Positions 8,835 to 26,836 of a stretch of DNA of 64,000 nt are shown one piece after another. The position numbers were made by a program, and so were the translations under genes. Under the pieces are notes generated by a model. It was not told the DNA's origin, did no database searches, and worked only from the letters and a program-made list of their open reading frames with translations. The DNA is from Nitratireductor aquimarinus (GTDB lineage: Bacteria; Pseudomonadota; Alphaproteobacteria; Rhizobiales; Rhizobiaceae). Numbering within the stretch: the first letter of the stretch is position 1; the number at the start of each line of letters is the position of its first letter. The stretch is from contig NZ_JAFKDE010000007.1 in assembly GCF_017255295.1 (NCBI RefSeq), positions 62,001 to 126,000 on the forward strand, in the 5' to 3' direction.

Positions 8835-9299
8835 TCAGCCTTCGGCGAGCTTTGCCAGAAGGCGCAGAAAAGTGGCGGTCTCGCGCTGGGTCAGCGGAGC
8901 CAGCGTCTCCTCACTCACCTCCAGCGCATCGGGCAGGAGCGCCTCGATGGTCTCCCTGCCCTTGTCGCTCAGGCTGACGACCAGACGACGCCGGTCACTG
9001 CCATGCGGCTCAAGCGCAACGAGATCGCGGGCCTTCAACCGGTCGATAACGCCCTTGATGGTCGCGGCGTCCATCGCCACAAGCTGGCCAAGCTGATTCT
9101 GGGAGGTTGCGCCAACCTCGTGAAGCTTTGCCAGCGCAGCAAACTGCGGCGGCGTCAGATCGCTGATGCGCGCCGCAAAAATCGCCAGATGGCGCTGGTT
9201 GGCCTTGCGCAGGATGAAGCCAACCTGCTCGCCGAGCTCATAGACATCGGCCGTGTTGTTATCGGCCTGCATCCCGAGCCCGTCGCGCTCCACTGTCAT
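8835..9299 (-). CDS. MarR-family transcriptional regulator
   Basis: 154-aa winged-helix regulator. The helix-turn-helix lies in TSQNQLGQLVAMDAATIKGV, followed by the family wing DRLKARDLVALEPHGSDRRR. MarR proteins usually repress until a phenolic or heterocyclic acid binds. Its ATG overlaps the stop of the AA_synth gene (ATGA, 9296-9299), making it the last gene of the six-gene catabolic operon. In pseudomonads a MarR-type protein, NicR, controls nicotinate genes, so a 6-hydroxynicotinate-responsive regulator is a reasonable but unproven idea. Confidence 0.85.
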   Translation of the reverse strand: MTVERDGLGMQADNNTADVYELGEQVGFILRKANQRHLAIFAARISDLTPPQFAALAKLHEVGATSQNQLGQLVAMDAATIKGVIDRLKARDLVALEPHGSDRRRLVVSLSDKGRETIEALLPDALEVSEETLAPLTQRETATFLRLLAKLAEG

Positions 9300-9880
9300 C
9301 TGAGACCGTCCTCGCCTTTCACTTCGTCGACCGTCAGGCCGCCCATGCGCGCATGGATACGCGGTCCACAGGCCATGGCAAGCACAAACAGGATTTCGTC
9401 GGGGCGCGGACCATCCGGCATCCCCACTTCCATCGCGTCGAAATGGCTGCGCACATAGGCCGCGTTGATGTGGCCGAGCGGAATATCGATGCGCGCGCCG
9501 AACCCGCCCACCTTCTTGGATGAGGGCACGATGGCCTTCGAATCGCCCAGCCGCTCACGCATGGCGTAACCGCCCGGCACATGCCACAGCGCTCCGTGTT
9601 CCAGCTCACCGGCCGTGCCGACAATGGCGCCCTTGCCGAAACCGTCGATCACCGCAATGTCACCGCCAAGCGCAGCGATGAGGCGGTCGGACATCTCCAG
9701 CCCGAGCGGCTTCAAATCCTCCATCGCGCTCTCGACCTCTTCCACATAGCCCCCGGCGAAGGGGTTCTTCACCAGTGCCAGAGCGGCGGCGCGGCGACGC
9801 GGCTTCATCGGGGCCGGGCCGCCCTCATGGAGAATTTCTTCGGTCACGAGCGCGATCTTGCGCAGGGCGAATTCAGGCAT
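9296..9880 (-). CDS. AA_synth (DUF1185) family protein
   Basis: 194-aa protein starting MPEFALRKIALVTEEILHEGG, matching the 'amino acid synthesis' family PF06684, a fold with solved structures but no settled reaction. The conserved core is visible as VKNPFAGGYVE, GKGAIVGTAGELEHGALWH and PSSKKVGG. The start ATG (9880) overlaps the stop of the UPF0280 gene by 8 nt, and its own stop overlaps the marR start. Embedded in a nicotinate-type catabolic operon, it may act on an intermediate after ring reduction. An ORF extension upstream to 10096 is an artefact. Confidence 0.8.
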   Translation of the reverse strand: MPEFALRKIALVTEEILHEGGPAPMKPRRRAAALALVKNPFAGGYVEEVESAMEDLKPLGLEMSDRLIAALGGDIAVIDGFGKGAIVGTAGELEHGALWHVPGGYAMRERLGDSKAIVPSSKKVGGFGARIDIPLGHINAAYVRSHFDAMEVGMPDGPRPDEILFVLAMACGPRIHARMGGLTVDEVKGEDGLR

Positions 9881-10790
9881 GATGGGCAATCCTGTTGCTG
9901 GAAATGTTTCTGGGTCCGGTTGCGCCTTTGGCGGCGCGATCACGCATGCTGACAAGCGGGGCAGCGCCGCATTCGCGCACCGCACCGCACAGGAAAAGGG
10001 CCGCACTCTCGATGAGACCACGGTCGCGCATCGCCTCGGCCACGGCAAGACCGCGCCCAAGCGCCTGCGCAACCTCGGACCGCGAGAGCGCGCCAACAGC
10101 CTGCGTCACCAGACGGTCGCGCAGATCACTGTCGGGATCGATTTCACAGGCCGGAACGCGGGATATTGCCGGGTGCCCCGGCAGATCAACCGCATTGGCG
10201 ATCAGCGTCGCCGCCACATCGGCAGAAGCAGCGGAACGCGCCAGCACCGTCACCGCATCGGCGATGCCGAGCGAATGACTGCGCCCGCGCCACCCGCTTG
10301 TCGCCATGCCCCGCACGGGATCGTCTGAGCGGATTGTCACGCGGTCGGCGAAGCCGTTTCCAGTTCCGGCAATGGCCGCTTCGAGGCTTTCGCCTTCCCT
10401 GAGATAAAACGCGCTGTCGCCGCCATTGTTCACATAGGCGCGCGCCAGCGTCCGCCCCTCAACGAGAGCAGCAAGAACCTCATCGGCAACGCTCCCGGCC
10501 ACCGCCGCCATGGGCGTAACGAAGGCAGGCGCATGGCGCTCTGCCGCCGCCTCCATGCGGCGCGCGGTGGTGGATGCAAAACTGCGCGGCTCTTCACCGA
10601 CAGGGATGCGCAGAGCCGGCAGTTCCGCCACCAGTTCTTCAAGGATCGTATCGAACCGCGCAACGGCCTGCCGACAGGCCGCACGGCATTCATCTTCCGC
10701 GCCGAACGCCTCGACAATCAGATCAATCGGGCCGTGGTTCAGATGCAGACGACGCCCATCGGCCAACCAGTTGGCGGTCGGGCCGCTCAC
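9873..10790 (-). CDS. UPF0280 family protein (ApbE-like fold)
   Basis: 305-aa protein of the UPF0280 family, related in fold to the flavin transferase ApbE but with no defined role. GTG start at 10790, overlapping the reductase stop as GTGA. Visible segments include NNGGDSAFYL (a hydrophobic core segment near residue 120) and TSGWRGRSHSLGIADAVTVLA, typical of the family. No signal peptide. Its conserved placement between a 6-hydroxynicotinate-reductase-like gene and AA_synth suggests either flavin attachment to the reductase or a separate catabolic step. Both are inference. Confidence 0.8.
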   Translation of the reverse strand: MSGPTANWLADGRRLHLNHGPIDLIVEAFGAEDECRAACRQAVARFDTILEELVAELPALRIPVGEEPRSFASTTARRMEAAAERHAPAFVTPMAAVAGSVADEVLAALVEGRTLARAYVNNGGDSAFYLREGESLEAAIAGTGNGFADRVTIRSDDPVRGMATSGWRGRSHSLGIADAVTVLARSAASADVAATLIANAVDLPGHPAISRVPACEIDPDSDLRDRLVTQAVGALSRSEVAQALGRGLAVAEAMRDRGLIESAALFLCGAVRECGAAPLVSMRDRAAKGATGPRNISSNRIAHHA

Positions 10791-12313
10791 CGCTTCGGCT
10801 CCCGGCGCAACTGGTGTAGCGGCGGCCAGGGGTTCGATGCAGCAGCGCCCCGCGCCTCACGTTGATTGAAGTACTCGCCGCCCTTTTCCAGCACGTCTTC
10901 CACGCTGCGGATCTCATCCGCATAGCCGCCGAGGCGAATGTAATCCTCCCGCCGGAGCGTGAACTCGATGGGTGCGACCAGCGCCGGGGTCGGCACATAG
11001 CCAAAAGCATTTTCGGGCGTGCGCATCACATCCACCATGATGGTGATGCCACCGCCCGGCCACACATAGACCGGCGCGCCGCCAACCGTGACATAGGTTC
11101 TGAGCCCCTGAACCGAGCGCGTGAGATTGACCGGATTCTCCGTCACACCAGCGCGAAGACTGCCTCCCGCACCGCCCATGAACAGAACGGTGCAAAGCGC
11201 CGGCTCGCAATTCTCTTCGATCAGCTCCACGGATTTGCGCAGGCGTTCGGGGAACGGCTTCTTAACGGGCTTCAGCGCCTCATCGAGCTCGTAATAGGAA
11301 AACTGCTCGCCCGTGGTGGACACCATGAGCAATGAAAGTCCGGGCCGTGCGCCCTTCTTCTCATTGAAGGGGCCAAGAATTTCCAGCGGATCGTCAATGG
11401 TCGTGCCGCCCCAGCCAAGCCCCGGCTCGGACACCTTGAAATAGCGCCCCGGTGTGGAGCGTCGGCCGATGATCTTGATGCCGGTGTCTTCCCAGCCGAT
11501 CACCTTGCCCGCCTGATGCTCGGACACGACGCCGGTGATGTGGTCATCGACGACAACCACCTCGTCCACCAGCCCCTTCCATTGCGAGGCGAACATGCCA
11601 ATGGTCGCCGACCCGCAGCCGACCCGCATGCGCTCCTCGCGCGTGCCGTCGATGACCGGCGGCTTTCCCGCCTGCACGACAATGCCTGCACCGCCGTCGA
11701 TGGTCAGCTCCACCGGCTTCTTGTTGCACAGGTCCATCAGCGCCTGGCAGGTGACACGGCCTTCCGCCTTGGAGCCGCCCGTCAGGTGCTGCACCCCGCC
11801 GAGCGAGAGCATCTGGCTGCCATATTCAGCCGTGGTCACATGGCCGACCGCCTCGCCATCCGCGCGCACCGTCGCGGCTTCAGGGCCGAGATGCCGGTCG
11901 GTGTCGATCTTCACCTTCACGCCGCAATAGGAGAAAATCCCCTCCGTCACGACCGTGACGAGATCGACGCCTTCCACCTCCTGCGACACAATGAAGGGGG
12001 CGGGCTTGTAGTCGGGATAGGTGGTGCCCGCGCCGACCGCGCTCACGAAGCGGCGCTTGGTGTTGACCAGTTCGCCATCCCACGGCGCTTCCCCCTCGAA
12101 GGGTACCACCGGGTCGCCTTCCTCGGCCGCATGTTCGAGAATGGTCACCGGGTCGCAGCGTGTGATGCGCCCGTCGAAATTGCCATAGCGATCACAGGCG
12201 CCCGTGCGCCCTTCGGCGATGTAGCACATGACGGGGCATGCATCGCAGCGCAGCTTGTCGCCTGCCGGCTTTTTGGGCGGCGTCGCCTCGAAACGTTCGG
12301 TCAGCTCGTTCAT
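10787..12313 (-). CDS. 6-hydroxynicotinate reductase-like iron-sulfur protein
   Basis: 508-aa protein with an N-terminal ferredoxin-like cysteine cluster, C23-x2-C26-x3-C30-x9-C40 (CDACPVMC...GAC), plus C53, then a long glycine-rich body. It resembles proteins annotated as 6-hydroxynicotinate reductase, which reduce 6-hydroxynicotinate to 1,4,5,6-tetrahydro-6-oxonicotinate in anaerobic clostridia and in the Azorhizobium-type route. ATG at 12313 overlaps the stop of the molybdenum hydroxylase gene by 4 nt. The pairing with a nicotinate-dehydrogenase-type enzyme supports the call. The exact substrate could be another N-heterocycle. Confidence 0.8.
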   Translation of the reverse strand: MNELTERFEATPPKKPAGDKLRCDACPVMCYIAEGRTGACDRYGNFDGRITRCDPVTILEHAAEEGDPVVPFEGEAPWDGELVNTKRRFVSAVGAGTTYPDYKPAPFIVSQEVEGVDLVTVVTEGIFSYCGVKVKIDTDRHLGPEAATVRADGEAVGHVTTAEYGSQMLSLGGVQHLTGGSKAEGRVTCQALMDLCNKKPVELTIDGGAGIVVQAGKPPVIDGTREERMRVGCGSATIGMFASQWKGLVDEVVVVDDHITGVVSEHQAGKVIGWEDTGIKIIGRRSTPGRYFKVSEPGLGWGGTTIDDPLEILGPFNEKKGARPGLSLLMVSTTGEQFSYYELDEALKPVKKPFPERLRKSVELIEENCEPALCTVLFMGGAGGSLRAGVTENPVNLTRSVQGLRTYVTVGGAPVYVWPGGGITIMVDVMRTPENAFGYVPTPALVAPIEFTLRREDYIRLGGYADEIRSVEDVLEKGGEYFNQREARGAAASNPWPPLHQLRREPKR

Positions 12314-15057
12314 TGTCCTGCCTCCCGCGCCCGGATGGCCGCCAGAATGCGGCTTGGCGTGGCCGGCACTTTCGTCACCTCCACACCCACCGCATGACGG
12401 ATCGCATTGAGGATCGCCGGCGCGGTGGGGATCAGCACATGCTCGCCCAGCCCCTTCGCCCCGAACGGCCCTTCCGGGTCCGGCACTTCCACGAGAATGG
12501 TTTCGATGGGCGGCACGTCGCCAATGGTGGGGATCAGATAATCGTGCAGGTTTTCCGTGCGGCCCGGAACATATTCCTCCATCAGCGCCAGGCCGATGCC
12601 CTGCGCAATGCCGCCCTCGATCTGGCCTTCCACCAGAAGCGGATTGATGGCGCGGCCCACATCGTGAGCGGCGACGATCCGCAGGAGCCGCACCGTACCA
12701 AGCGTGGTGTCGACCTCCAGCTCCACAAGCTGCGCGCCATAGCCGTAAACGGCATAGGGAACACCCTGCCCCTTCCCGTCCAGCGCCGTTGTGGGCGGAT
12801 CGTAGGTTTCCTCCGCGCAGAACGCATAGCCATCAGAACCGGCTTCAATCTCAGCGAGTTCGACGCGCCGCCGCACCGCCCCCTCGCGAATAACGAGCGC
12901 CCCGTCTTCAAGGCCGATCACCGCCGCATCCGACACATTTGCGAAGCGCAAAATTTTCTCCCGCAAAGCGCGGCCCGCCTTCTCCGCAGCCTTGCCCGTC
13001 ACATAGGTCTGGCGCGAAGCAGACGTCTTGCCCGCATCCGGCGTGACGCCCGTATCCCCGCCCACGAGTTGGAACGCCGAAAGCGGCAAACCGCTGGCGT
13101 CCGCGCAAATCTGCGTCACCACCGTGTTGGAGCCCTGTCCGATATCCACCGCGCCCTGATGCAGCATCACCGCACCGGACGCCGTGACCCCGACGCGGAT
13201 CTTCGAGGGGTTCGGCAGAGCCGTGTTCCCGCAGCCATACCAGCAGGACGCAACGCCGATGCCGCGCCGCAGCCTCCCGTCGCCCGCATTGGCGCTATCG
13301 GCTTCCGCCTGGGCGCGCGCCCAGTGCGGTTTCAGCGCCTCGAGACAGTCGCGAATGCCAACGCCTGAAAGCGCCTGCCCGCAGGTGGTGCGATCACCAT
13401 CGACAAGCGCATTGTCGATACGGAACGCTAGCCGGTCGCGGCCAAGCTTCTCCGCCAGCCGGTCATAAAGCGTTTCCTGCATGATGGTCGCCTGCGGCAC
13501 GCCAAAGCCGCGAAACGCGCCCGATACCGGACCATTGGTGTGGATCGCCCGGCCCGTGGCGCGATAATTCGGCGTGCGATAGGGACCGGAGGCGTGAACC
13601 GGCACACGGTTCGCCACGGTCGGCCCCCAGCTTGCATAGGCACCGGTGTTGAAATCTCCCTCGAACACCATGCCGGTGACGCGCCCCGCCGCATCCGCAC
13701 CGATTGAGGCGCGCATGGCCGCCGGGTGCCGCTTGGTGGTGGAGCGCATGGAATCGCCACGTGTGTAGACCATCGCCGCCGGCCGGCCCGTTTTGAGCGT
13801 CACCAGCCCCACCAGCGGCTGTAGCGAGATGTCGAGCTTGGAGCCAAAACCGCCCCCTGCCGCCAGCGGCACGATGCGCACCCTTTCAGGCGGCAGGCCC
13901 AGAACCCTGGCGGTGTCGTCGCGGTCCATGTAAGGCGCCTGCGTGCAGGCCTTGATGACCAGCGTGTCGCCCTCCATCGCCGCAAACCCCGCCTCGGGCT
14001 CGATATAGGCATGCTCCACATAAGATGTCTCGATCTCGCCGGAGACAGAAACGAAAGCCCCCGCCAGAGCCGCCTCGGGATCACCACTCTCCACAAAGCC
14101 CTGTGTGAGCTGATTGCCCGTGCGCCCCTCATGCAGATCGGGAAAGTCCGGACGCCGCGCCTCATCCGGCGTAAGCGCATGGGGCAGCGCCTTCCAGCTG
14201 ACCGGAAACGCATCCATGTCCAGCGCCTCGATGGCCGCGCGTTCGCCGGCGATCAGCGCCACAGCCTCACCACGAAACCGCGCCCGCCCCCCGGCCAGCG
14301 CCGGCTGGTCAGCGAAAGGCGGAATGACCCCAAACCGGTTTTCACCCGGAATGTCGGCTGCCGTGAAGACCGCGACAATACCGGGATGCGCCGCGATGAA
14401 CGCCTCCGTGTCGCCGATCTCGAAATCCGCATGCCAGTGCGGCGAGCGCACCACCGCCACCGAAAGCGCATCGGCCGGACGTTCATCCGCGCCGAACACC
14501 TCAGCCCCACTCACCTTGCGTTCGCCATCGAGCCTGATGGGCGACGCCCCGACGGCGCGGCCCTGCTCCACCATGGCCGCATCCGAAGCAACCGAACGGT
14601 TGGCGTTCATCACCGCATCGATGATCTTGCGATAGCCGGTGCAGCGGCACAAAACGCCGCCAAGCGCATCCTGAACCTCGGTTTCAGATGGCGCAGGGTT
14701 CTTTTCCAGAAGTGCTGCCGCGCTCACGAGAACGCCCGGCGTACAAATGCCGCACTGGGCTGCACCATGGCGCAGGAAGGATTCCTGAAGCGCCGACAGG
14801 CTGCCATTGGAAAGCCCCTCCACCGTGCGCACGCGGCTGCCCGACAGCCCCGCCGCCGGCACGAGGCAGGCGCAGACCACCGCGCCATCCACCTCAACCG
14901 AACAGGCCCCGCAATCGCCCGCATCGCAGCCAACCTTGGTGCCGGTCAGCCCCAGCCCGTCACGTAGCACGGAAGAAAGCCGCTGGAGTGGAGAAACCTC
15001 CGCCACAACGGGCTCGCCGTTCACCTCGAACGAAACGGAAAGTCGCTCTGCGCTCAT
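12310..15057 (-). CDS. Xanthine dehydrogenase-family molybdenum hydroxylase, fused 2Fe-2S and molybdopterin subunits
   Basis: 915-aa fusion. Residues 1-150 carry two [2Fe-2S] domains: C44, C49, C52 and C64 in the plant-type cluster, and C102, C105, C137 and C139 in the second. From about 165 on is the molybdopterin domain, ending in the catalytic-Glu motif GAKGLGE. Such enzymes hydroxylate carbon next to ring nitrogen, for example nicotinate to 6-hydroxynicotinate. The FAD subunit is encoded immediately upstream with a 4-nt overlap (ATGA, 15054-15057), which fixes the start. An upstream extension to 15279 is out of the question because it lies inside the FAD gene. The small and large subunits are usually separate genes in nicotinate dehydrogenases. 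Confidence 0.9.
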   Translation of the reverse strand: MSAERLSVSFEVNGEPVVAEVSPLQRLSSVLRDGLGLTGTKVGCDAGDCGACSVEVDGAVVCACLVPAAGLSGSRVRTVEGLSNGSLSALQESFLRHGAAQCGICTPGVLVSAAALLEKNPAPSETEVQDALGGVLCRCTGYRKIIDAVMNANRSVASDAAMVEQGRAVGASPIRLDGERKVSGAEVFGADERPADALSVAVVRSPHWHADFEIGDTEAFIAAHPGIVAVFTAADIPGENRFGVIPPFADQPALAGGRARFRGEAVALIAGERAAIEALDMDAFPVSWKALPHALTPDEARRPDFPDLHEGRTGNQLTQGFVESGDPEAALAGAFVSVSGEIETSYVEHAYIEPEAGFAAMEGDTLVIKACTQAPYMDRDDTARVLGLPPERVRIVPLAAGGGFGSKLDISLQPLVGLVTLKTGRPAAMVYTRGDSMRSTTKRHPAAMRASIGADAAGRVTGMVFEGDFNTGAYASWGPTVANRVPVHASGPYRTPNYRATGRAIHTNGPVSGAFRGFGVPQATIMQETLYDRLAEKLGRDRLAFRIDNALVDGDRTTCGQALSGVGIRDCLEALKPHWARAQAEADSANAGDGRLRRGIGVASCWYGCGNTALPNPSKIRVGVTASGAVMLHQGAVDIGQGSNTVVTQICADASGLPLSAFQLVGGDTGVTPDAGKTSASRQTYVTGKAAEKAGRALREKILRFANVSDAAVIGLEDGALVIREGAVRRRVELAEIEAGSDGYAFCAEETYDPPTTALDGKGQGVPYAVYGYGAQLVELEVDTTLGTVRLLRIVAAHDVGRAINPLLVEGQIEGGIAQGIGLALMEEYVPGRTENLHDYLIPTIGDVPPIETILVEVPDPEGPFGAKGLGEHVLIPTAPAILNAIRHAVGVEVTKVPATPSRILAAIRAREAGQ

Positions 15058-15908
15058 GCCATGGCCCCTCTTTCCGCTGCAACGCCAAGCGCCCGCTCCA
15101 GCGCCCGCGCCGTGATTTCGCGCGCCGCTTCCAGCCGATAGGCGGCCGTGCCGCGCACATCGTCGATTGGCGACAGTTCGGACAGGTCGCACGACGCCAC
15201 CGCAGAGCGGATATCCGCAACCCGCGCGCCTTTCAGCTGCGCCTCCAGGCCTGAGAGCCGCTGCGCCACCGCCGAGCACGAACCGACACTGACCGCCGCT
15301 TCCGCGATCCGCCCGCCATCAATCACCACCCGCGCAGCGGCCATGGCGATGGAAATCACCAGATAGCGCCGCGCGCCCAGTTTCACGAAGCCCGAGTTCC
15401 CGCGCGCCGAGGCCCTTGGCACACGGATCGCCGTAAGCAGTTCATTGGGCGCACGCGCCGTCTTGCGATTGCCAAGGATGAAGGCTGCAAGCGGCAGATA
15501 CCGAACACCCTCCGCAGACCGCAGCTCCACCTCTGCATCGAGCGCCAGAAGCGGCGGCACACCATCGGCCGCCGGCGAAGCATTGCACAGATTGCCGGCC
15601 ACCGTGCCGGCATTCTGGATCTGCACCGAGCCGACTTCACGGGCGGCAAGCTTGAGCATGTCGAAGCCGGGCGGCAGCGGCGCATCGATCACCGCGCTCC
15701 AGCTCGTGCGCGCGCCGATGACGATGTGCGTCGCGGTTTCGTGAATGCCCTCAAGGGCCGACAAGCCGTTGATGTCGAGCACATCGCTCTTCAGCGGGCC
15801 CGCGCCGAGGGCGGGATAAAAGTCCGTGCCGCCGGCAAGAATCGTCCAGCGCCTTGAGCATAAAAGCCCCAGCGCTTCCTCCAGTTCGGTCGGTCTGGCA
15901 TAGTCCAT
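15054..15908 (-). CDS. Molybdenum hydroxylase FAD-binding subunit (CoxM/XdhB type)
   Basis: 284-aa FAD_binding_5/CO_deh_flav_C protein. The FAD-binding signatures are ILAGGTDFYPAL near residue 35 and the AGNLCNASPAADGVPPLLAL segment near residue 110. It passes electrons from the iron-sulfur clusters to an acceptor as part of the enzyme encoded next. ATG 15908 (MDYARPTELEEAL) matches the family N-terminus. The longer reading frame to 15944 would need a TTG with no ribosome site. First gene of the operon; the promoter region carries an operator-like palindrome. Confidence 0.9.
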   Translation of the reverse strand: MDYARPTELEEALGLLCSRRWTILAGGTDFYPALGAGPLKSDVLDINGLSALEGIHETATHIVIGARTSWSAVIDAPLPPGFDMLKLAAREVGSVQIQNAGTVAGNLCNASPAADGVPPLLALDAEVELRSAEGVRYLPLAAFILGNRKTARAPNELLTAIRVPRASARGNSGFVKLGARRYLVISIAMAAARVVIDGGRIAEAAVSVGSCSAVAQRLSGLEAQLKGARVADIRSAVASCDLSELSPIDDVRGTAAYRLEAAREITARALERALGVAAERGAMA

Positions 15909-15977
15909 GCTGCGCCTGCCTGCCAATCGCGATGTCGTTCCCAAGCCCTTTTTGCTGCTCTGACGGCGGGGCTTAAA

Positions 15978-15996
15978 TTCATTTGTACACGAATGA
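15978..15996. promoter_or_regulatory. Operator-like site, copy 1 (catabolic operon / pncA promoter)
   Basis: TTCATTTGTACACGAATGA, an imperfect palindrome with 14 of 18 core positions symmetric, between the divergent FAD-subunit and nicotinamidase genes. Its reverse complement matches 15 of 19 bases of the site at 22344-22362 upstream of the ABC importer. Confidence 0.65.
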
Positions 15997-16074
15997 TACG
16001 CTCCTCTGCCGGCTTGTCAAAGGGGAACATTCGGTCCACCTTCCCGGCGATTTCATGCGAGAAGGAGACAGGGC

Positions 16075-16674
16075 ATGGCCGACGAGGCGTTGATCGTGAT
16101 CGATGTGCAGAACGATTTCTGCCCCGGCGGAGTACTTGCCGTGGCCGGGGGCGACGAGGTTGTACCGGTCATAAACGGGCTGATCGAGCGCTTCGACCAC
16201 GTGGTTCTGACGCAGGACTGGCACCCGGCGGGCCATTCCAGCTTCGCCTCCTCGCATCCGGGCAAAGCCCCGTTTGAGATGGTCGAAATGCCCTATGGCA
16301 CCCAGACGCTGTGGCCCGACCACTGCGTTCAGGGCACCGGGGGCGCAGCCTTCCATGACGGGCTTTCATGGGACAGGGCCGAGCTTGTCATTCGCAAGGG
16401 CTTCCGCAAGTCGATCGACAGCTATTCGGCCTTTTTCGAGAATGATCACGAAACGCCGACCGGCCTGTCGGGCTATCTGCGCGAACGCGGCATCACCCGG
16501 GTGACGCTCGCCGGTCTGGCGACGGATTTCTGCGTCGCCTATTCAGCCATCGACGCCCGCCGTCAGGGATTTGAGGCCACCGTCATCCTCGAAGGCTGCC
16601 GCGCCATCGACCTTGGCGGCTCGCTGGCGGCGATGACCGAGAAGATGAAAGAGGCCGGCGTTACGCTGGTGTGA
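16075..16674 (+). CDS. pncA: Nicotinamidase
   Basis: Isochorismatase-fold amidase, 199 aa, converting nicotinamide to nicotinate and ammonia. The catalytic triad is D10 (VIDVQNDF), K108 (IRKGF) and C153 (TDFCVAYS). Metal ligands are D48, H50 and H54 in QDWHPAGH. The ATG has GAAGGAGA 9 nt upstream. It is divergent from the molybdenum-hydroxylase operon across a 166-bp region holding an operator-like palindrome. In most bacteria PncA serves NAD recycling. Here it could also feed nicotinate into the adjacent catabolic route. Confidence 0.93.
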   Translation: MADEALIVIDVQNDFCPGGVLAVAGGDEVVPVINGLIERFDHVVLTQDWHPAGHSSFASSHPGKAPFEMVEMPYGTQTLWPDHCVQGTGGAAFHDGLSWDRAELVIRKGFRKSIDSYSAFFENDHETPTGLSGYLRERGITRVTLAGLATDFCVAYSAIDARRQGFEATVILEGCRAIDLGGSLAAMTEKMKEAGVTLV

Positions 16675-16710
16675 GACAGGGGGGCGGGTTAGGAGCCAAG
16701 TCAGGATGCC

Positions 16711-16757
16711 AAGCGCCCTCGCCCTTCGACAAGCTCAGGATGAGGGCTGTTGGAGCG
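16711..16757 (+). repeat. Dispersed repeat, copy 1
   Basis: Core gccctcgcccttcgacaagc then tcaggatgagggctgttgga. It matches 17401-17447 almost base for base over 47 bp. Confidence 0.85.
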
Positions 16758-16910
16758 CAGGGCGCAGGGGCATGTCTTCAACCAAATTCTCCGACAATGC
16801 CACAGCCTTTGGCGGTCAGATGGCAGCATCTGAAGCCCGCATAAATTGGGAAAACAGAGAGAAATAAACACACCGTCCCCATGAACCGGTGATCCGGGAA
16901 ACGAAGATCT

Positions 16911-16957
16911 GCGCCAAAGTAACCCTCATCCTGAGCCTGTCGAAGGGCGAGGGTGCC
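16911..16957 (-). repeat. Dispersed repeat, copy 2 (inverted)
   Basis: Contains ccctcatcctgagcctgtcg then aagggcgaggg, the reverse complement of the copy 1 core. Flanks (gcgccaaagta, gtgcc) match copy 4. Confidence 0.85.
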
Positions 16958-16999
16958 AGGCACCATGACCGAAGCCAGGTCACCTTCTCTCGACGCTCC

Positions 17000-17341
17000 T
17001 CATTCTCGACCACCCGCGCTTTTCGAGCGATGATCGCCAAGGCACCCGGCACCATTCCCCTGCCCGTTCCGCGACAGGTCCGGCAGCGCTTCATAGTCGA
17101 GTGCCATCAGCGCTTCCTTCTTGGCGCGCGACCAGCCCTTTATCTGCCGTTCCCGGGCAATGGCGTCGAGAATGCGATCATAGGTTTCGGTAAACACCAG
17201 CTCCACCGGGCGGCGAGGCTTGGTGTAACACTCAAGAATGCCCGCATTGTGCTCCCACACACGCGCTTCAACCGGCTGCTTGGTCAATCCGGTGTAGTAG
17301 GAGCCATCCGCGCATCGCAGGATATAGACCGTGGCTTCCAT
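17000..17341 (-). CDS. GIY-YIG nuclease family protein (UPF0213-like)
   Basis: 113-aa protein with the compact GIY-YIG core: VYILRCADGSYYTGLT at the N-terminus, ARVWEHNAG, then the conserved glutamate region AIARERQIKGWSRAKKEAL. This stand-alone subfamily is common in alphaproteobacteria. Its cellular role is not established. ATG 17341 is preferred because it matches family N-termini (MEATVYIL), although 17380 is possible. The gene is bracketed on both sides by copies of the same dispersed repeat in inverted pairs, an arrangement that may be meaningful given the nuclease fold. Confidence 0.85.
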   Translation of the reverse strand: MEATVYILRCADGSYYTGLTKQPVEARVWEHNAGILECYTKPRRPVELVFTETYDRILDAIARERQIKGWSRAKKEALMALDYEALPDLSRNGQGNGAGCLGDHRSKSAGGRE

Positions 17342-17400
17342 CGCGCTTCCCGCCAGAAGAAATACATCCTCTGATTGCATTTCATGCGAGCCGCGGAGTC

Positions 17401-17447
17401 AAGCGCCCTCGCCCTTCGACAGGCTCAGGATGAGGGCTGTTGAAGCG
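17401..17447 (+). repeat. Dispersed repeat, copy 3
   Basis: Near-identical to copy 1 (aagcgccctcgcccttcgac, then aggctcaggatgagggctgt), starting 60 bp upstream of the GIY-YIG start codon. Confidence 0.85.
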
Positions 17448-17477
17448 CTGCGCCTGTCATCCACCCACATTGCGACA

Positions 17478-17526
17478 GCGCTAAAGTAGCCCTCATCCTG
17501 AGCCTGTCGAAGGGCGAGGGCGCCCG
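17478..17526 (-). repeat. Dispersed repeat, copy 4 (inverted)
   Basis: Reverse-complement copy, about 30 bp after copy 3 and ending 17 bp before the livF stop. Shares flanking aaagta and gcgcc bases with copy 2. Confidence 0.85.
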
Positions 17527-17542
17527 GGACCAACGTCCCGCG

Positions 17543-18250
17543 TCACCCCACCCCCACATAACGGTGCACCATGTCCGGGTCTTCCCGCAGGCGCTCCACA
17601 TCCACCGTCTCGCGGTTGCGGCCGTTCTCGATGAAGGCGACGCGATCCGCCACGGGCAGAACGGCATCAACCCGCTGCTCGACAAGGATGGTGGAAACGC
17701 CGCGCTCGCGCAGCCCCGCCACGGTCTCGCGAATGCGCGCGATCATCGAGGGCATGAGACCCTCCGTCGGCTCATCCAGAAGCAGCACCTGCGGCTCAAG
17801 ACAGAGCGCGCGCGCCATGGCCAGCATTTGCTGCTCGCCGCCCGAAAGCGTGCCGGAGCGCTGCTTCAGCCGCTCGCGCAAAACCGGGAAGAGATCGAGC
17901 ACGCTGTCACGCGTGGCAGCACCCTTGCCGCGTGTCATCAGCCCGATCTCGATGTTCTCGCCCACGGTCAGTTCCGAAAACAGCCGACGCCCCTGCGGCA
18001 CATAGGCAACGCCGGCTTTCGGAACCTCGTGCGGCGCGAGGCTATTCAACTCCACATCGCCAAGCAGAATGCGGCCTGCCGTTGCCGGCACCAGCCCCAT
18101 GATCGTCTTCAGCGCCGTGGTCTTGCCTGCGCCATTGCGGCCAAGCAGGCAAAGCACCTCGCCGGAGCGTAACTCCAGATCGAAACCGCGCAGCACCTGC
18201 ACATGGCCATAGGCACTGTCGACATTTTCCATTTTCAGGGCAGCCGTCAT
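17543..18250 (-). CDS. Branched-chain-amino-acid-type ABC transporter ATPase (LivF-like)
   Basis: 235-aa ATP-binding protein of the HAAT importer family. Walker A is LLGRNGAGKTT, the signature is LSGGEQQMLAMARAL, and Walker B is VLLLDEPTEGL, where the EGL ending is typical of LivF. Start ATG 18250 lies 1 nt after the LivG-like stop, and a longer frame to 18319 would overlap that gene. Last gene of a five-gene importer operon (SBP, LivH, LivM, LivG, LivF). The substrate cannot be read from the ATPase. Confidence 0.9.
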   Translation of the reverse strand: MTAALKMENVDSAYGHVQVLRGFDLELRSGEVLCLLGRNGAGKTTALKTIMGLVPATAGRILLGDVELNSLAPHEVPKAGVAYVPQGRRLFSELTVGENIEIGLMTRGKGAATRDSVLDLFPVLRERLKQRSGTLSGGEQQMLAMARALCLEPQVLLLDEPTEGLMPSMIARIRETVAGLRERGVSTILVEQRVDAVLPVADRVAFIENGRNRETVDVERLREDPDMVHRYVGVG

Positions 18251-18251
18251 C

Positions 18252-18992
18252 TCAACCTCCGAGATAGGCTTGCTGGACGGCCTGGTTGGCGCGGATCTCG
18301 GCAGGCGCGCCCTGCGCAAGAATGCGCCCCTGCTCCATCACCGTGATGCGCTCGGCAAGCGCCATGACCACATCCATGTTGTGTTCAATCAGAAGCACCG
18401 TCGCCTCCTCGCCGATCTGGCGCACCAGCGCGATGAAATTCTCGATCTCGCTGTCGGAGAGACCCTGCGTGGGTTCATCGAGGATCAGGAGACGCGGCCG
18501 CAGCGCCAGCCCCATCGCCACTTCAAGCAGCCGCTGATGCCCGTAAGACAGATTGCCGGCCACCTTTTGCGCGTGCTCCGCAAGGCCCACCTTCTCCAGC
18601 GCGTCCATCCCGTGTTCGGTGAGCGCGCGCGCTGAAAGCCCCCGCGCGTGGTCATCGATCAACTGCCGCTGAACCGCCAGCGCCACATTGTCGAAGGCCG
18701 TCAGATTGGCGAACACGCTGGTGATCTGGAACGTGTAGGCGATGCCGGCGCGCACCCGCTTGTGGGCCGGCATCTGCGAAATGTCCTGCCCGTCGAAAAC
18801 CACGCGTCCTTCCGTCGGCGCAACACGCCCGCAGATGAGGCTCACAAAGGTCGTCTTGCCGGCCCCGTTCGGGCCGATGATGGCGTGGGTCTCTCCCTCG
18901 GGCAGCGCGAAGTCGACACCATCGACCGCGCGCAGCCCCCCGAAGGCGCGCGCAAGGCCCCTGGTTTCAAGAAGCGGACTCACGGCAGCCAT
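18252..18992 (-). CDS. Branched-chain-amino-acid-type ABC transporter ATPase (LivG-like)
   Basis: 246-aa HAAT-family ATPase. Walker A IIGPNGAGKTT, signature LSYGHQRLLEVAMGL (the Y variant typical of LivG), Walker B LLILDEPTQGLSD. The C-terminus AYLGG matches LivG family ends. Start ATG 18992 has AGGTGG 5 nt upstream. The alternative GTG at 19001 would overlap its own ribosome site. It overlaps the LivM-like gene by 13 nt, consistent with coupled translation. Confidence 0.9.
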   Translation of the reverse strand: MAAVSPLLETRGLARAFGGLRAVDGVDFALPEGETHAIIGPNGAGKTTFVSLICGRVAPTEGRVVFDGQDISQMPAHKRVRAGIAYTFQITSVFANLTAFDNVALAVQRQLIDDHARGLSARALTEHGMDALEKVGLAEHAQKVAGNLSYGHQRLLEVAMGLALRPRLLILDEPTQGLSDSEIENFIALVRQIGEEATVLLIEHNMDVVMALAERITVMEQGRILAQGAPAEIRANQAVQQAYLGG

Positions 18993-19945
18993 GGCAACCA
19001 CCTTTCACGCACCGTACCGGTGATGCCTTTGGGGAAGAACAGAATGACGCCGATCAGCACCAGACCGACCACCAGCAGATGCGCGGTGGTGTAGCTCGAC
19101 GCGGTGTCTATGACATAGAACATGAACAGGGTGCCGATGAGCGGGCCGAGTGTCGTCGCGGCACCGCCGACCAGCACCCAGAGCAGCGGCAGAATGGAAT
19201 ACTGGATCGCCGCAAAACCAGACCCGACATAGCCGAACAGCACCGCATAGGCAGCGCCCGAGGCGGCGCAGAAAATGCCCGAAAGCACCATCGACATGAG
19301 CTTGTTGGCAAACACGTCATAGCCCAGCATGCGCATGCGCTCCTCGTTCTCGCGAATGGCGATCAGCGAGCGGCCATAGGGCGCGCGCACCAGAAACAGG
19401 ATCGCTCCCAGAACCAGCGTGAAAAGCGAAAGCGCGACGAGATAGCGGGTGGAGGGATCGGAGAGATCGAGCGCCCCGCCGGGAAATTCCAGAACGCGCG
19501 AGGCCTGCGGCAGAACGAGTCCTTCCTCGCCGCGCGTATAGGTCGTGAAGTAAAGGGTCATCAGATAGAAGACCTGCGCGAACATCAGCGTGACGATCAT
19601 GAACGCGACGCCGGTTGTGCGCAGCGCCAGAAAGCCGACGACCAGCGCCAGCGCCGCACCGGCGGCAAGCCCCGTCCCGAAGGCCGGCCAGACGCTCCAT
19701 TCCAGATGGTAGATCGTCAGCCCCGCCCCGTAGAGCCCGGCGGCGAAGAACATGGCGTGGCCGAGGCTGAGCAGTCCCGTGTAGCCAAAGGCCAGATTGT
19801 AGCCCATGGCGAAAACGGCCAGCACCAGAACGCGTGCAAACACGCCGCGATGATATTCCGGCAGCAGAAAGTTGAGCGCCAGAAGCAGGAGGACCACGCC
19901 GACATGAAGGGCAATGGTCTTTGCAGAAGGGGTCAGTCTGGTCAT
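18980..19945 (-). CDS. Branched-chain-amino-acid-type ABC transporter permease (LivM-like)
   Basis: 321-aa inner-membrane permease with about eight to ten hydrophobic segments. The LivM signatures YNLAFGYTGLLSLGHAMFFAAG and the EAA-like cytoplasmic loop RSLIAIRENEERMRMLGYD are visible. ATG overlaps the LivH-like stop by 4 nt. Pairs with the LivH-like permease to form the membrane channel. Confidence 0.9.
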   Translation of the reverse strand: MTRLTPSAKTIALHVGVVLLLLALNFLLPEYHRGVFARVLVLAVFAMGYNLAFGYTGLLSLGHAMFFAAGLYGAGLTIYHLEWSVWPAFGTGLAAGAALALVVGFLALRTTGVAFMIVTLMFAQVFYLMTLYFTTYTRGEEGLVLPQASRVLEFPGGALDLSDPSTRYLVALSLFTLVLGAILFLVRAPYGRSLIAIRENEERMRMLGYDVFANKLMSMVLSGIFCAASGAAYAVLFGYVGSGFAAIQYSILPLLWVLVGGAATTLGPLIGTLFMFYVIDTASSYTTAHLLVVGLVLIGVILFFPKGITGTVRERWLPWLP

Positions 19946-20823
19946 CGCGCGGCCTCTCCGAAAAGGCCCTGCGGGCGAAACACCAGGATCATCGCGACCG
20001 CCAGCGTCGCCAGCATCTTGGCGAGCGTCGGTGAGAAGAACATCGAGATGATGCCATCCGACAGGCCGATCAGCACCGCCGCCAGAACCGTGCCACGCAG
20101 CGAACCCAGACCGCCGATGATCACGACGATGAACGACAGAAGCAGTGGATCGTGACCCATCAGGTAATGCGCCTGCTGGATGGGCACGATCAGCACGGCC
20201 GCCACGGCGGCAAGCCCCGCCCCCAGCGCAAACACGCCGGCATAGACGCGCCCGACCGGAATGCCGAAGGCCTGCGCCGTCTCACGGTCGAACTGGGTGG
20301 CGCGCATGACGAGGCCGATCTTCGTGCGCGTCAGCACAAACCATGTCGCCAGCATCATCAGGATGGAGAAGCCGATCACCGCGAGTTTGTAGGCGGAATA
20401 GCCAAACCAGGGCAGCTGCATGCGGTAATTGAACGGCGCTTCGACCGGCCGCGCCTCCGGCCCGTAAAACGTCAGGGCGAGCTGCTGGATGATGTACATC
20501 AGGCCGATCGTGGCAACGATGGTCGCCTCCGGCTCATATTTGAGCCGGCTCAAGACCAGCCGCTCGGCAACAAAGGCGATGGCAGCCACCACAAGCGGGC
20601 TCAGCACCAGCGCCACCAGAAAGCCGATCGCCGGATGACCGCCGAACAACGACGCGAACCACCAGGCGAGTACCGCGCCCAGCATGTAGAACTCGCCATG
20701 GGCGACGTTCACCACCCGCATGACGCCGAAGACCAGTGACAGGCCAAGCGCCATCAGCGCCAGCACAGCCGCCGTCACCAGCCCTTCAAGCGTGGCGAGA
20801 AGAAAATACGGACCGAAGGCCAT
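19942..20823 (-). CDS. Branched-chain-amino-acid-type ABC transporter permease (LivH-like)
   Basis: 293-aa permease with about eight membrane helices. It contains ALGLSLVFGVMRVVNVAHGE near the N-terminus and the EAA-like loop VMRATQFDRETAQAFGIPV, both typical of LivH. It starts with ATG at 20823, 141 bp from the binding-protein stop; that gap contains a palindromic repeat that may lower read-through from the SBP gene. Confidence 0.9.
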   Translation of the reverse strand: MAFGPYFLLATLEGLVTAAVLALMALGLSLVFGVMRVVNVAHGEFYMLGAVLAWWFASLFGGHPAIGFLVALVLSPLVVAAIAFVAERLVLSRLKYEPEATIVATIGLMYIIQQLALTFYGPEARPVEAPFNYRMQLPWFGYSAYKLAVIGFSILMMLATWFVLTRTKIGLVMRATQFDRETAQAFGIPVGRVYAGVFALGAGLAAVAAVLIVPIQQAHYLMGHDPLLLSFIVVIIGGLGSLRGTVLAAVLIGLSDGIISMFFSPTLAKMLATLAVAMILVFRPQGLFGEAAR

Positions 20824-20901
20824 TCACAAACGCACTTTCATGAAAGGAGCCGAAGACACGCCGCCGAACCGTCCCATGGGAAAAGCCGCAACGCTGACGT
20901 T

Positions 20902-20941
20902 CCCTCTCCCCGCATGCGGGGGAGAGGGCAAGGGTGAGGGG
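20902..20941. repeat. Palindromic repeat between the binding-protein and LivH-like genes
   Basis: CCCTCTCCCCGCATGCGG then GGGAGAGGG, a near-perfect inverted repeat, followed by caagggtgagggg. This sequence type recurs in many proteobacterial genomes. It sits in the mRNA between SBP and permease genes and could act as a stabiliser or attenuator. Confidence 0.75.
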
Positions 20942-20964
20942 CAAACACCGCCCGCCTTGATGTC

Positions 20965-22269
20965 TTAGAACGACATCGCCGTGTAGTCGGCCTCGGGCTC
21001 GTAAGCGCCATCCTCGATGGAGGTGCGGTGCACCACTTCGAGCTTCCCGTCCTTCACCTGGCTGATGCTCTGCTCGCCGAAGACCTGGTGGATCTTGCCG
21101 TTGAACAGCTTCTTGCCCTGCGGATGGTCCGGGCCGGCGTCCATCCCGGTCATCGCCTCGGTGGCCTCGATCATGGCGGCGCGGTCATCCGGCCCCTTGT
21201 AGTCGCAGGCTTCCATCGCGGCCTTGATGACGTTGAGCGTCTCCCAGCAGCCGAACATGTGAGCGGCGGTGGAGATGTCCTTGCCGTCATTCACGCTCGC
21301 GCCATTGTCGTCGATGCCCACCGTCTCGCGATAGGCGGTGACATAGTCCGGCTGATCCGGCTGCGCGTAGCGCGGCATGCCTTCCCAGAAATGGCTTCCT
21401 TCAAGGAATTCCAGACCCGGGCTTGCGATATCGACGGCCTCGAGCGAGTCGATGAAGCCGAAGAGCTGCGGCCCGCCGGAGCCGAAGAACTCGCCCATTT
21501 CCTTCACGAAGGTGAGCACGGCCGGGCCGACCATGACGTGATAAATCACGTCCGTGTCGCGCGGGATCTGCGGGAAATAGCGTGTGAACGAGGTCTCCGT
21601 CGGCGGGATCGGCACCTTGGCCACCACCTGCCCGCCCTGCGCCTCGATGGCCGGGGTGAAGAAGTCGCGGTGGTCATGTCCGAACGCATAGTCCGGATAG
21701 ACCAGCGTGACCTTCTTGCCGAGATTGTCGGCAATCCACGGCGCCATGGAGCGGGCCTGCGACTTCACATCGGTGATGCCCGGCTGCACGCAGTAGCGGT
21801 TCAGCTTGCCGGATGCGACGTGATAGCCCTCGCTGACCACGTAATAGGGAATTTTCAGCTCGCCCGCCGCCGGAGCCGAACCGACGACCACGTGGCTGAA
21901 CAGCGTTCCGTAAACCAGATCGACCTTGTGCTGGTTGGCGAATTTCTCGACCACCTCGGCACCGCGCTTCGGGTCCGTGCCGTCATCCTCGATCACGATT
22001 TCGAGCGGCCGCCCGTTGATGCCGCCGGCATCGTTGATGCGCTTGGCCGCCGCCGCCGTGACGCGATCGTACCAACGGCCATAAGCCGCGCCGATGCCCG
22101 TGCGGTGGCACTGGAAACCGATCTTGATGGGCTCGGAAGACTGCGCCTGCCCGTAACGCACGAAGCCGGGCGCGGCGATGAGACCGGCCGCAGCGCCGAG
22201 GCCCTTGAGCGCCGACCTGCGGCTGAGACCGCTGTTTAAATTAACCAGAGACTTGCGATTTTCACTCAT
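20965..22269 (-). CDS. Branched-chain-amino-acid-type ABC transporter substrate-binding protein, Tat-exported
   Basis: 434-aa periplasmic-binding protein (Peripla_BP_6/LivK type). The N-terminus has a twin-arginine signal, SRRSALKGLGAAAGLIAAPG, so it is probably exported folded. The mature domain shows KIGFQCHRTGIGAAYGRWYD and GGINGRPLEIVIEDDGTDP. ATG 22269 has GGGGAA upstream. Longer frames run into the promoter. Ligand unknown. The shared operator with the molybdenum-hydroxylase operon hints at a heterocyclic acid or amide rather than an amino acid. Confidence 0.88.
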   Translation of the reverse strand: MSENRKSLVNLNSGLSRRSALKGLGAAAGLIAAPGFVRYGQAQSSEPIKIGFQCHRTGIGAAYGRWYDRVTAAAAKRINDAGGINGRPLEIVIEDDGTDPKRGAEVVEKFANQHKVDLVYGTLFSHVVVGSAPAAGELKIPYYVVSEGYHVASGKLNRYCVQPGITDVKSQARSMAPWIADNLGKKVTLVYPDYAFGHDHRDFFTPAIEAQGGQVVAKVPIPPTETSFTRYFPQIPRDTDVIYHVMVGPAVLTFVKEMGEFFGSGGPQLFGFIDSLEAVDIASPGLEFLEGSHFWEGMPRYAQPDQPDYVTAYRETVGIDDNGASVNDGKDISTAAHMFGCWETLNVIKAAMEACDYKGPDDRAAMIEATEAMTGMDAGPDHPQGKKLFNGKIHQVFGEQSISQVKDGKLEVVHRTSIEDGAYEPEADYTAMSF

Positions 22270-22306
22270 GCCGGTTCCCCATTGTTGTGATCGTTTGACC
22301 GAGCAT

Positions 22307-22340
22307 TTCCAACGGTTGGAAGCATTTTCCAGCGTTGGAA
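22307..22340. promoter_or_regulatory. Two tandem palindromes upstream of the importer operon
   Basis: TTCCAACGGTTGGAA (22307-22321) and TTCCAGCGTTGGAA (22327-22340). The dyad centres are about 20 bp apart, two helical turns, as expected for a dimeric regulator binding twice on one DNA face. They lie 38-71 bp upstream of the substrate-binding protein start. Confidence 0.65.
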
Positions 22341-22343
22341 AAA

Positions 22344-22362
22344 TCACTTGTGTACAAACTAA
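22344..22362. promoter_or_regulatory. Operator-like site, copy 2 (importer promoter)
   Basis: TCACTTGTGTACAAACTAA with the palindromic core TTGTGTACAA. Fifteen of 19 positions equal the reverse complement of 15978-15996 at the catabolic operon. Confidence 0.65.
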
Positions 22363-22555: not shown

Positions 22556-23968
22556 TCAGCCCACGGTGGGTGCGGAGAGCAGCCAGAGGCCAAAAACGGT
22601 GTAACCGACCATCAGCGCGGCAAGCGGAATCTGGCTGATGGTCGCCACCCGCGCAGAGCCGAAATGCCGATAGGCGATCAGATGCGACAGGACAACGGCC
22701 AGCACATGCCCGCCAATGATCGCCACCGCCTGCGCGTTCCAGATCAGCCACGCAGACCGCGCGCCGAGCGTCGCGCCGGCCTGCACATGCATCCCCGCCG
22801 TGCCGAACAGGTTCCAGCCCTGCATCAACGGGTCGGAGAGCGCGGCAAGCGCATACTGGCTGTTGATGGTGAACCCCACCAGATAATGCGAGAAATGATA
22901 GGCGAGCGCGATGGGGATGATCGACCAGGCCAGAAGACCGCCCGTCTTCACGACATCCGCCTCCCCCACAAACCGGCAACCCAGCCAGACCGAGCCCATG
23001 AAGGCGGAAAACAGAAGCACGAACATCAGGGCGAGCCCCAGCGAGTTCGCCCCGACAACCGCCGAACGGCCGGGGAATTCCAGCGGGTTGATGCCGATGA
23101 GATCGAGCCAGAAGAATGTGTGCGTGAGCCCGTCGAAGGACACCGAGCTTAAGGCCAGAAGCAGAAAGGCGATGCCGGAAAGCGGCAGCGCCGCGGCCTC
23201 TCCAAGCTTGTAGCCCGGCAGGCCGATCACCAGCCGCCGCCCCCTGTCGCCAGCCTCCAGCGCAAAGAAGGAAAGGCGCGAGAGCATGGTGAAGAACAGC
23301 GACAGAAACTCCACCCGGCCGCTCCAGCGCTCATGCCCGAACAGGACCATGCCCGCAAAGGTGAAGCCCCAGTAGAGCGAGACGGCAATCGCAAGCCTTT
23401 CGGGGTCGGAAGGCGCAAGATAGACAAGCTCGAACCAGGCAAAGCCGAACAGCGTCACAAAGGCCGGCCACATCCCCAGCCAGGCGGGCAGACGCCAGAA
23501 CCCGTCTTTCGGAACACCCGCACGCACCAGCATGCGCCACGGCCCATACCAGGGGTTGATCCAGTCCCAGACATTGCCAAGAACGCCCTGCACAATGGTC
23601 ACGCCGACCCACAGAAGCGTCCAGATCACCAGCGGCAGCGGATTGGAAAGCGGATCGCGGCTGCCGTAAAACCCGGCAAACACAAGACCTGCAAGGGCAA
23701 GGAATGAGAGCGTGCTTAAAAGCGCACGCCCATCCAGCGGCATCGGAAACAGCCCAGCCCTTCTTGCCGAAAGTCGCTCGAAACCATGCACCGGCAGAAA
23801 GACCAGAACCAGAAAGCTCAGCGCAACGGAGAGCATGCCGCCGAACAGGTAATAATCGGTCGGCAGAAGCAGAACATGGCCGCGCTCGGAGGCATGGGCC
23901 AGCGCCTCACCGGCGGCGGCGCACAACGCGGCCCCGGTCAGAAACGCACGCGATACAGGCGTTTTCAT
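22556..23968 (-). CDS. Multi-pass membrane protein of unknown function
   Basis: 470-aa protein with a cleavable or anchoring N-terminal signal (AFLTGAALCAAAGEALA), then HASERGHVLLLPTDYY and about eleven hydrophobic segments. Conserved-looking aromatic/His sites include VWDWINPWYGPW, FFWLDLIGINP and AYHFSHYL. Some homologous-looking membrane proteins are labelled fenitrothion hydrolase in databases, but that label cannot be confirmed here. It overlaps the GntR gene by 4 nt (23965-23968), so the two are co-transcribed. Confidence 0.6.
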   Translation of the reverse strand: MKTPVSRAFLTGAALCAAAGEALAHASERGHVLLLPTDYYLFGGMLSVALSFLVLVFLPVHGFERLSARRAGLFPMPLDGRALLSTLSFLALAGLVFAGFYGSRDPLSNPLPLVIWTLLWVGVTIVQGVLGNVWDWINPWYGPWRMLVRAGVPKDGFWRLPAWLGMWPAFVTLFGFAWFELVYLAPSDPERLAIAVSLYWGFTFAGMVLFGHERWSGRVEFLSLFFTMLSRLSFFALEAGDRGRRLVIGLPGYKLGEAAALPLSGIAFLLLALSSVSFDGLTHTFFWLDLIGINPLEFPGRSAVVGANSLGLALMFVLLFSAFMGSVWLGCRFVGEADVVKTGGLLAWSIIPIALAYHFSHYLVGFTINSQYALAALSDPLMQGWNLFGTAGMHVQAGATLGARSAWLIWNAQAVAIIGGHVLAVVLSHLIAYRHFGSARVATISQIPLAALMVGYTVFGLWLLSAPTVG

Positions 23969-25981: not shown

Positions 25982-25996
25982 TACGGCAAGAGACCA

Positions 25997-26032
25997 GACG
26001 CGGCGTCTCCCCCTTTTCCGGGACGCCGCGTC
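25997..26032 (+). promoter_or_regulatory. Intercistronic hairpin between SBP and ATPase genes
   Basis: GACGCGGCGTC (25997-26007) and GACGCCGCGTC (26022-26032) form a perfect 11-bp stem without a downstream T-run. It probably stabilises the SBP part of the mRNA so that it is made in excess. Confidence 0.65.
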
Positions 26033-26051
26033 AGCTTTAAGGGAGGTGCCG

Positions 26052-26831: not shown

Positions 26832-26836
26832 CCCCG

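Follow-up and report, generated by a model that had tools for sequence, protein, structure and literature searches.

Gene content of the locus

We analysed a 64,000-nt stretch of Nitratireductor aquimarinus DNA (hereafter the window; contig NZ_JAFKDE010000007.1, all coordinates being window positions), which harbors a minus-strand operon resembling nicotinate degradation genes, together with a nicotinamidase-type gene and a branched-chain-amino-acid (BCAA)-type importer (Table 1). The operon runs from the FAD subunit of a molybdenum (Mo) hydroxylase through its fused Mo subunit, a 6-hydroxynicotinate-reductase-like protein (HnR), UPF0280 and AA_synth to a MarR-family regulator, with successive overlaps of 4, 4, 4, 8 and 4 nt. 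Open reading frames and family matches thus confirm the layout given in the initial annotation, which had been made from the DNA letters alone: six coupled genes, a nicotinamidase-type gene transcribed divergently from them and an importer of five genes. UPF0280 scores 372 bits against NF003322 (cut-off 290) and has no Pfam match at E 0.001, AA_synth scores 223 bits against PF06684 (cut-off 27), and the nicotinamidase-type protein scores 210 bits against NF008623 (cut-off 174). The importer (17543-22266) belongs to the HAAT (branched-chain-type) class, consisting of two ATPases, two BPD_transp_2 permeases and one type-I binding protein.

Table 1. Features of the putative nicotinate regulon in the window
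Feature	Position	Strand	Evidence
FAD subunit, nicotinate-dehydrogenase-like hydroxylase	15054..15908	-	PF00941, PF03450; 35% to E. barkeri NdhF; best PDB match 3hrd_C
Fused [2Fe-2S]/Mo hydroxylase subunit (NdhS+NdhL+NdhM, one chain)	12310..15057	-	Pfam; 44%, 37%, 42% to E. barkeri NdhS, NdhL, NdhM
6-Hydroxynicotinate-reductase-like protein (HnR)	10787..12313	-	39% to E. barkeri HnR
UPF0280, proposed HnR maturation factor (ApbE-like flavin transferase)	9873..10790	-	NF003322; ApbE profile match; co-occurrence
AA_synth (DUF1185), type A1	9296..9880	-	PF06684; PDB 3byq, 2qtp
MarR-family regulator, proposed palindrome binder	8835..9299	-	PF01047; MarR in 26/40 loci
Palindromic operator, 0 mismatches, over -10 of operon promoter	15978..15997	.	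Motif scan
Sigma-70-like promoter TTGACA-16-TATCAT, catabolic operon	15993..16020	-	1 found; shuffles mean 0.1
Nicotinamidase/pyrazinamidase-type gene, divergent	16075..16674	+	NF008623 above cut-off
Importer ATPase, LivF type	17543..18250	-	PF00005
Importer ATPase, LivG type	18252..18995	-	PF00005, PF12399
Importer permease, LivM type	18980..19945	-	PF02653
Importer permease, LivH type	19942..20823	-	PF02653
Importer substrate-binding protein	20965..22266	-	PF13458; 70-72% orthologues at HnR clusters
Second operator copy, 2 mismatches, upstream of importer	22343..22362	.	Motif scan

Likeness to the Eubacterium barkeri nicotinate cluster

A piece of the PDB chain 3hrd_C, named as the FAD subunit of nicotinate dehydrogenase (NDH), was the query that led us to a related cluster in Eubacterium barkeri VPI 5359 and E. 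aggregans. In E. barkeri VPI 5359 (locus L056) the order is hnr, UPF0280, hgd-like, ndhF, ndhS, ndhL, ndhM, transporter-like, enamidase, AA_synth and further genes, which we take to be mgm and mii of the nicotinate cluster reportedly described by Alhapel in 2006. The enamidase of this locus aligns with PDB 2vun (ENAMIDASE) over all 386 residues. All five non-regulatory operon genes of the window have homologues in this cluster (ndh, hnr, UPF0280 and AA_synth, 31-44% identical), and the hydroxylase, at 35-44% to NdhF, NdhS, NdhL and NdhM, falls into the NDH type. The proposal of the initial annotation, nicotinate-type ring hydroxylation followed by ring reduction, is borne out by this match to a cluster with both nicotinate dehydrogenase and enamidase, and a nicotinate route for the window cluster is, as far as homology goes, well supported. 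The two clusters differ in that enamidase, hgd, mgm and mii are absent from the window, whose Mo subunit is fused, whose HnR has no ferredoxin domain, and which carries a BCAA-type importer and MarR where E. barkeri has another transporter and LysR.

No Pfam or NCBIfam family matches HnR at E 0.001, and even the best PDB match (E 0.29) is not meaningful; the protein is therefore named for its 39% identity, over 467 residues, to the E. barkeri cluster gene. The own genome has a single HnR gene. Across 50 HnR sequences C23, C26, C30, C40, C233 and C369 are conserved, and among 16 members scanned Fer4 matches are confined to the five from Bacillota, the alphaproteobacterial proteins having no N-terminal ferredoxin domain. 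The E. barkeri HnR reportedly carries covalently bound flavin and iron-sulfur clusters. As a separate observation, residues 131-166 of the window HnR give a weak match to GCV_T_C, the C-terminal barrel of the glycine-cleavage T-protein; it recurs in 15 of the 16 members (best E 0.00026), and the window protein lies below the curated cut-off.

Conservation of the cluster

We surveyed 385 alphaproteobacterial genomes (277 genera), 199 Bacillota genomes and 148 Clostridia genomes. HnR occurs in 68 of the alphaproteobacterial genomes, spanning 42 genera, and regions of at most 20 kb, some ending at contig ends, were fetched for 40 of these 68. UPF0280 adjoins HnR in all 40 loci and AA_synth is found in 32, so that the gene order is more than chance and its conservation, which the initial annotation had proposed to count, is supported. 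The Mo subunit is present in 36 loci (a few of these matches being distant), the FAD subunit in 34, MarR in 26 and a BCAA-type importer with at least three subunits in 19. In Bacillota HnR was found in 6 of the 199 genomes; five loci from four of them hold UPF0280 in 5/5, and enamidase and AA_synth in 4/5.

Partner genes differ among the 40 loci, 8 of which hold a Rieske oxygenase, 13 a hydantoinase, 4 Kor and 3 AOR, and the importers fall into two lineages, with binding-protein identities of about 70% or about 25%; binding-protein orthologues of the first kind (70-72%) lie beside the HnR cluster in L016, L020, L021 and L053. Together with the fused Mo subunit, which is just 37-44% identical to E. 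barkeri NDH, this variation could mean that the window cluster degrades another azaarene carboxylate or an N-methyl derivative (of picolinate or homarine type), nicotinate being the substrate only in relatives. We consider this unlikely, as three named plasmid clusters keep the core hnr-UPF0280-AA_synth-AA_synth with a different hydroxylase, annotated NicAB in two, a two-gene Mo hydroxylase also being seen, and as the homology to E. barkeri and the divergent nicotinamidase gene point to nicotinate. Of 40 other loci, just one (L019) has such a nicotinamidase gene next to the cluster.

Similar clusters in Azorhizobium and Bradyrhizobiaceae are said to cover the first three steps of nicotinate degradation, with a putative nicotinate ABC transporter (PMC3511419); compared with these, the window lacks the enamidase. 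The two proteins left without a function there may well be UPF0280 and AA_synth. Since such clusters and their putative nicotinate transporter are in print, neither the cluster type nor its importer is new, and the nicotinate interpretation of the initial annotation is largely right, but already published. The importer class, which it described as not normally tied to nicotinate, is not novel here, given that transporter (PMC3511419) and the BCAA-type importers in 19 of our 40 loci.

A palindromic operator shared by the operon and the importer

A sigma-70-like promoter lies ahead of the FAD subunit gene. A 20-bp palindrome, WTYRTTYGTRYACRAAYRAW, was first spotted on visual inspection of the window and of 11 loci. 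Scanning with at most three mismatches, and with 20 local shuffles as background, we found 57 sites in 34 of the 40 loci against a shuffle mean of 2.2 (largest 6); 23 of the 29 loci kept out of the motif definition contain it. Control loci hold such sites as well, namely 4 in 28 loci (167 kb). In the window itself only two sites were found, at the operon and importer promoters, and on this ground the two transcription units likely form a shared regulon, so that the earlier claim of a regulon with its own importer gains a common operator. A 16-base core version has four matches in the window, a number reached by 2 of 100 shuffles. In other loci the palindrome also stands ahead of MarR and importers, and the MarR protein of the operon may be its binder.

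Sites further precede KorA in all four loci with this gene, AOR in 2 of 3, enamidase in 2 of 10 and HyuA in 2 of 13, and in L053 they lie ahead of fpr, livK and hyuA. Kor, AOR and Fpr are enzymes that produce or consume reduced ferredoxin, and the sites ahead of them fit a ferredoxin-fed HnR.

Another palindrome, TTTCCAACGGTTGGAA, upstream of the importer was dropped as a regulon motif because it occurs nowhere else in the window. Two adjacent copies of this type lie at 22306-22341, beside the operator, and no other was found in the window at up to three mismatches.

UPF0280 as a candidate maturation factor of HnR

UPF0280 was detected in 70 of the 385 alphaproteobacterial genomes, including all 68 with HnR. 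Among the 148 Clostridia, UPF0280 occurs in 23 genomes and HcyBio in 22; these are the same 22 genomes, the 23rd being E. barkeri, and the two genes are at most 1.5 kb apart in 21 of the 22 and on different contigs in the remaining one. Full-length HnR was found in one of the 148, three other matches spanning the ferredoxin domain only. This distribution is consistent with a helper that serves two families of clients, and since UPF0280 tracks either HnR or HcyBio it is probably not a later pathway step. Of the two roles the initial annotation had offered for UPF0280, a later step thus falls away, and cofactor insertion is the better guess. The client relation of UPF0280 to HnR is well supported by co-occurrence, and UPF0280 likely matures HnR.

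As to the chemistry, a profile of 88 UPF0280 sequences matches a profile built from 9 ApbE sequences with E 6.3e-7 (reverse 1.7e-6; both single-pair values), whereas control profiles of HcyBio and HnR give 0.064 and 0.1 with the ApbE profile. The GGD/GGN, TSG and AD..T motifs align between UPF0280 and the flavin transferase ApbE, in which Ser241, His257 and Asp285 are named as conserved residues (PMC12052999); the TSG serine and the AD..T aspartate of UPF0280 would correspond to Ser241 and Asp285 of V. cholerae ApbE. UPF0280 shares a homologous core with ApbE and differs from it in having no His loop and no visible signal peptide, and in targets without D-x-x-[ST]-G-A-[ST]. Ordinary ApbE cannot be a general HnR maturase, because 6 of 14 HnR-bearing genomes examined have no ordinary ApbE match.

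We take COG2122 to be UPF0280 and DUF39 to be HcyBio. There is a likeness to the COG2122/DUF39/NIL-ferredoxin pathway, in which COG2122, a distant relative of ApbE, is required for homocysteine synthesis (PMC5764234): in both settings an iron-sulfur or ferredoxin-linked enzyme has a small ApbE-like protein as its strict companion. Here, however, that enzyme is HnR, the own genome has no HcyBio, and HnR and HcyBio are not detectably homologous. A literature search under the word UPF0280 found nothing, and among the matches listed no paper held both COG2122 and 6-hydroxynicotinate.

Several results weigh against flavin transfer by UPF0280 or against the two-client picture. The segment HxxDPxTG, with the catalytic His of ApbE, is a gap in the UPF0280 alignment, and the homology of COG2122 seemingly stops short of the flavin-binding region of ApbE (PMC5764234). 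The UPF0280 profile found 2o34 in the PDB and no ApbE chain at E up to 10. AlphaFold models of UPF0280 and HnR (three sequences each) were poor, with mean pLDDT of 36 and 38, and Foldseek with these poor models returned nothing at E 0.001. The flavinylation motif is absent from all 50 HnR sequences, and also from the 22 of HcyBio. Three profile comparisons and two hmmsearch runs gave no homology between HnR and HcyBio, an idea that we rejected. Finally, the two further alphaproteobacterial genomes with UPF0280 (G009 and G143; distant matches, E 2e-4 and 1e-6) have no HnR, and the HcyBio predicted there was not found, so that this prediction failed; HcyBio was found in none of 15 genomes searched, the own genome included. 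Distant UPF0280-like genes of two related alphaproteobacteria without HnR or HcyBio (L122:4033-4848 and L123:3982-4776) each adjoin a very large uncharacterised gene of about 900 aa.

The missing His loop could also be read as a sign that the partners of UPF0280 are matured without flavin transfer, their cysteines being modified by it through persulfide or some other sulfur chemistry, as has been proposed for COG2122 with DUF39 (PMC5764234). HcyBio has conserved cysteines, and all 50 HnR sequences share C233 and C369, two cysteines that are not part of the N-terminal cluster motif. However, nicotinate reduction needs no sulfur donor, UPF0280 resembles ApbE, and covalent flavin is said to be present in E. 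barkeri HnR; we therefore hold the sulfur route to be rather improbable, and somewhat favour flavin transfer over other chemistry.

AA_synth and ring opening

Enamidase homologues, 45-48% identical to that of E. barkeri, occur in 10 of the 40 HnR loci (an eleventh is cut off at the edge of L039), and one of them matches PDB 2vun with E 3.6e-109. Hydantoinase-type genes occupy 13 loci, none of which also holds enamidase (p 0.016, treating related loci as independent, as do all our enamidase, hydantoinase and AA_synth statistics). AA_synth has two types, A1 and A2, the latter closer to E. barkeri; the window has A1 only. Counting against a nicotinate route in this organism, no enamidase, hydantoinase, Kor or AOR gene lies in the window, and a search of the own genome with an alphaproteobacterial enamidase homologue gave only weak amidohydrolase matches (best E 1.2e-5), hydantoinase having been sought in the window but not genome-wide.

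All 10 loci with enamidase also carry A2-type AA_synth, which is present in 9 of the 30 other loci (Fisher p 1.1e-4), and the AA_synth-type protein TgnF stimulates the aldehyde-oxidising step of trigonelline breakdown (PMC7913881). By analogy, and from this association, a role of AA_synth near an aldehyde or enamide product is possible. The initial annotation had named UPF0280 and AA_synth as candidates for catalytic steps after ring reduction. Their predicted co-transcription, the A2 association and the position of AA_synth after enamidase in E. barkeri would suit this; UPF0280 accompanies HcyBio in Clostridia without HnR, however, and AA_synth is missing from 8 of the 40 loci, and we give the suggestion little credence.

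A second AA_synth gene of the own genome, 38% identical to the operon copy, lies on another contig (C14, L051:6856-7458), where it adjoins alpha/beta hydrolase-, aldehyde dehydrogenase- and 3-hydroxyisobutyrate-dehydrogenase-like genes. The last encodes a protein 33% identical to the hgd-like protein of E. barkeri.

Neighbouring features

A 48-nt inverted repeat (17403-17523; 92% complementary, 25 nt between the arms) separates the nicotinamidase gene from the importer. Beyond the importer, 22556-23968 encodes a 470-aa membrane-protein-like product without a Pfam match, homologues of which (cluster c46) have the importer on one side and the operon on the other in L016 and L020. Further on, 24995-27769 holds a distinct importer of ABC_sub_bind type, which has an ATPase and a permease of its own and adjoins a GntR/FCD regulator.

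Proposed pathway and its significance

We put at about even the chances that the operon and importer form a regulon dedicated to nicotinate, or to a closely related pyridine carboxylate, in which UPF0280 matures HnR and MarR acts as repressor. The importer and nicotinamidase would supply nicotinate, which the molybdenum hydroxylase would convert to 6-hydroxynicotinate. HnR, fed by reduced ferredoxin, would then reduce the ring to 1,4,5,6-tetrahydro-6-oxonicotinate, having been matured by UPF0280, most likely as a cytosolic ApbE-like transferase attaching flavin covalently. AA_synth may act near the ring-opening step or on the formyl acid that is produced, and MarR would repress both transcription units via the 20-bp palindrome until the substrate or 6-hydroxynicotinate is present.

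A more speculative reading, which we hold to be less likely than not, makes UPF0280 (COG2122) a flavin-attaching enzyme of the cytosol whose active site has been reworked. It would serve two unrelated families of ferredoxin-linked enzymes, namely HnR, for reducing N-heterocycles, and HcyBio, for synthesising homocysteine. The same regulon would also provide the ferredoxin needed by HnR, in some relatives through oxidation of products of the pathway itself (AOR, Kor).

Two points add usefully to the published interpretation, namely the client relation of UPF0280 to HnR and an operator that defines the regulon. Given the strict pairing, HnR would be a second, soluble partner of UPF0280, and one reported to hold covalent flavin. 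In homocysteine synthesis the role of COG2122/UPF0280 is presented as an open question (PMC5764234). The operator, in turn, offers a route to missing pathway genes, such as those for opening the ring and for supplying ferredoxin in aerobes.

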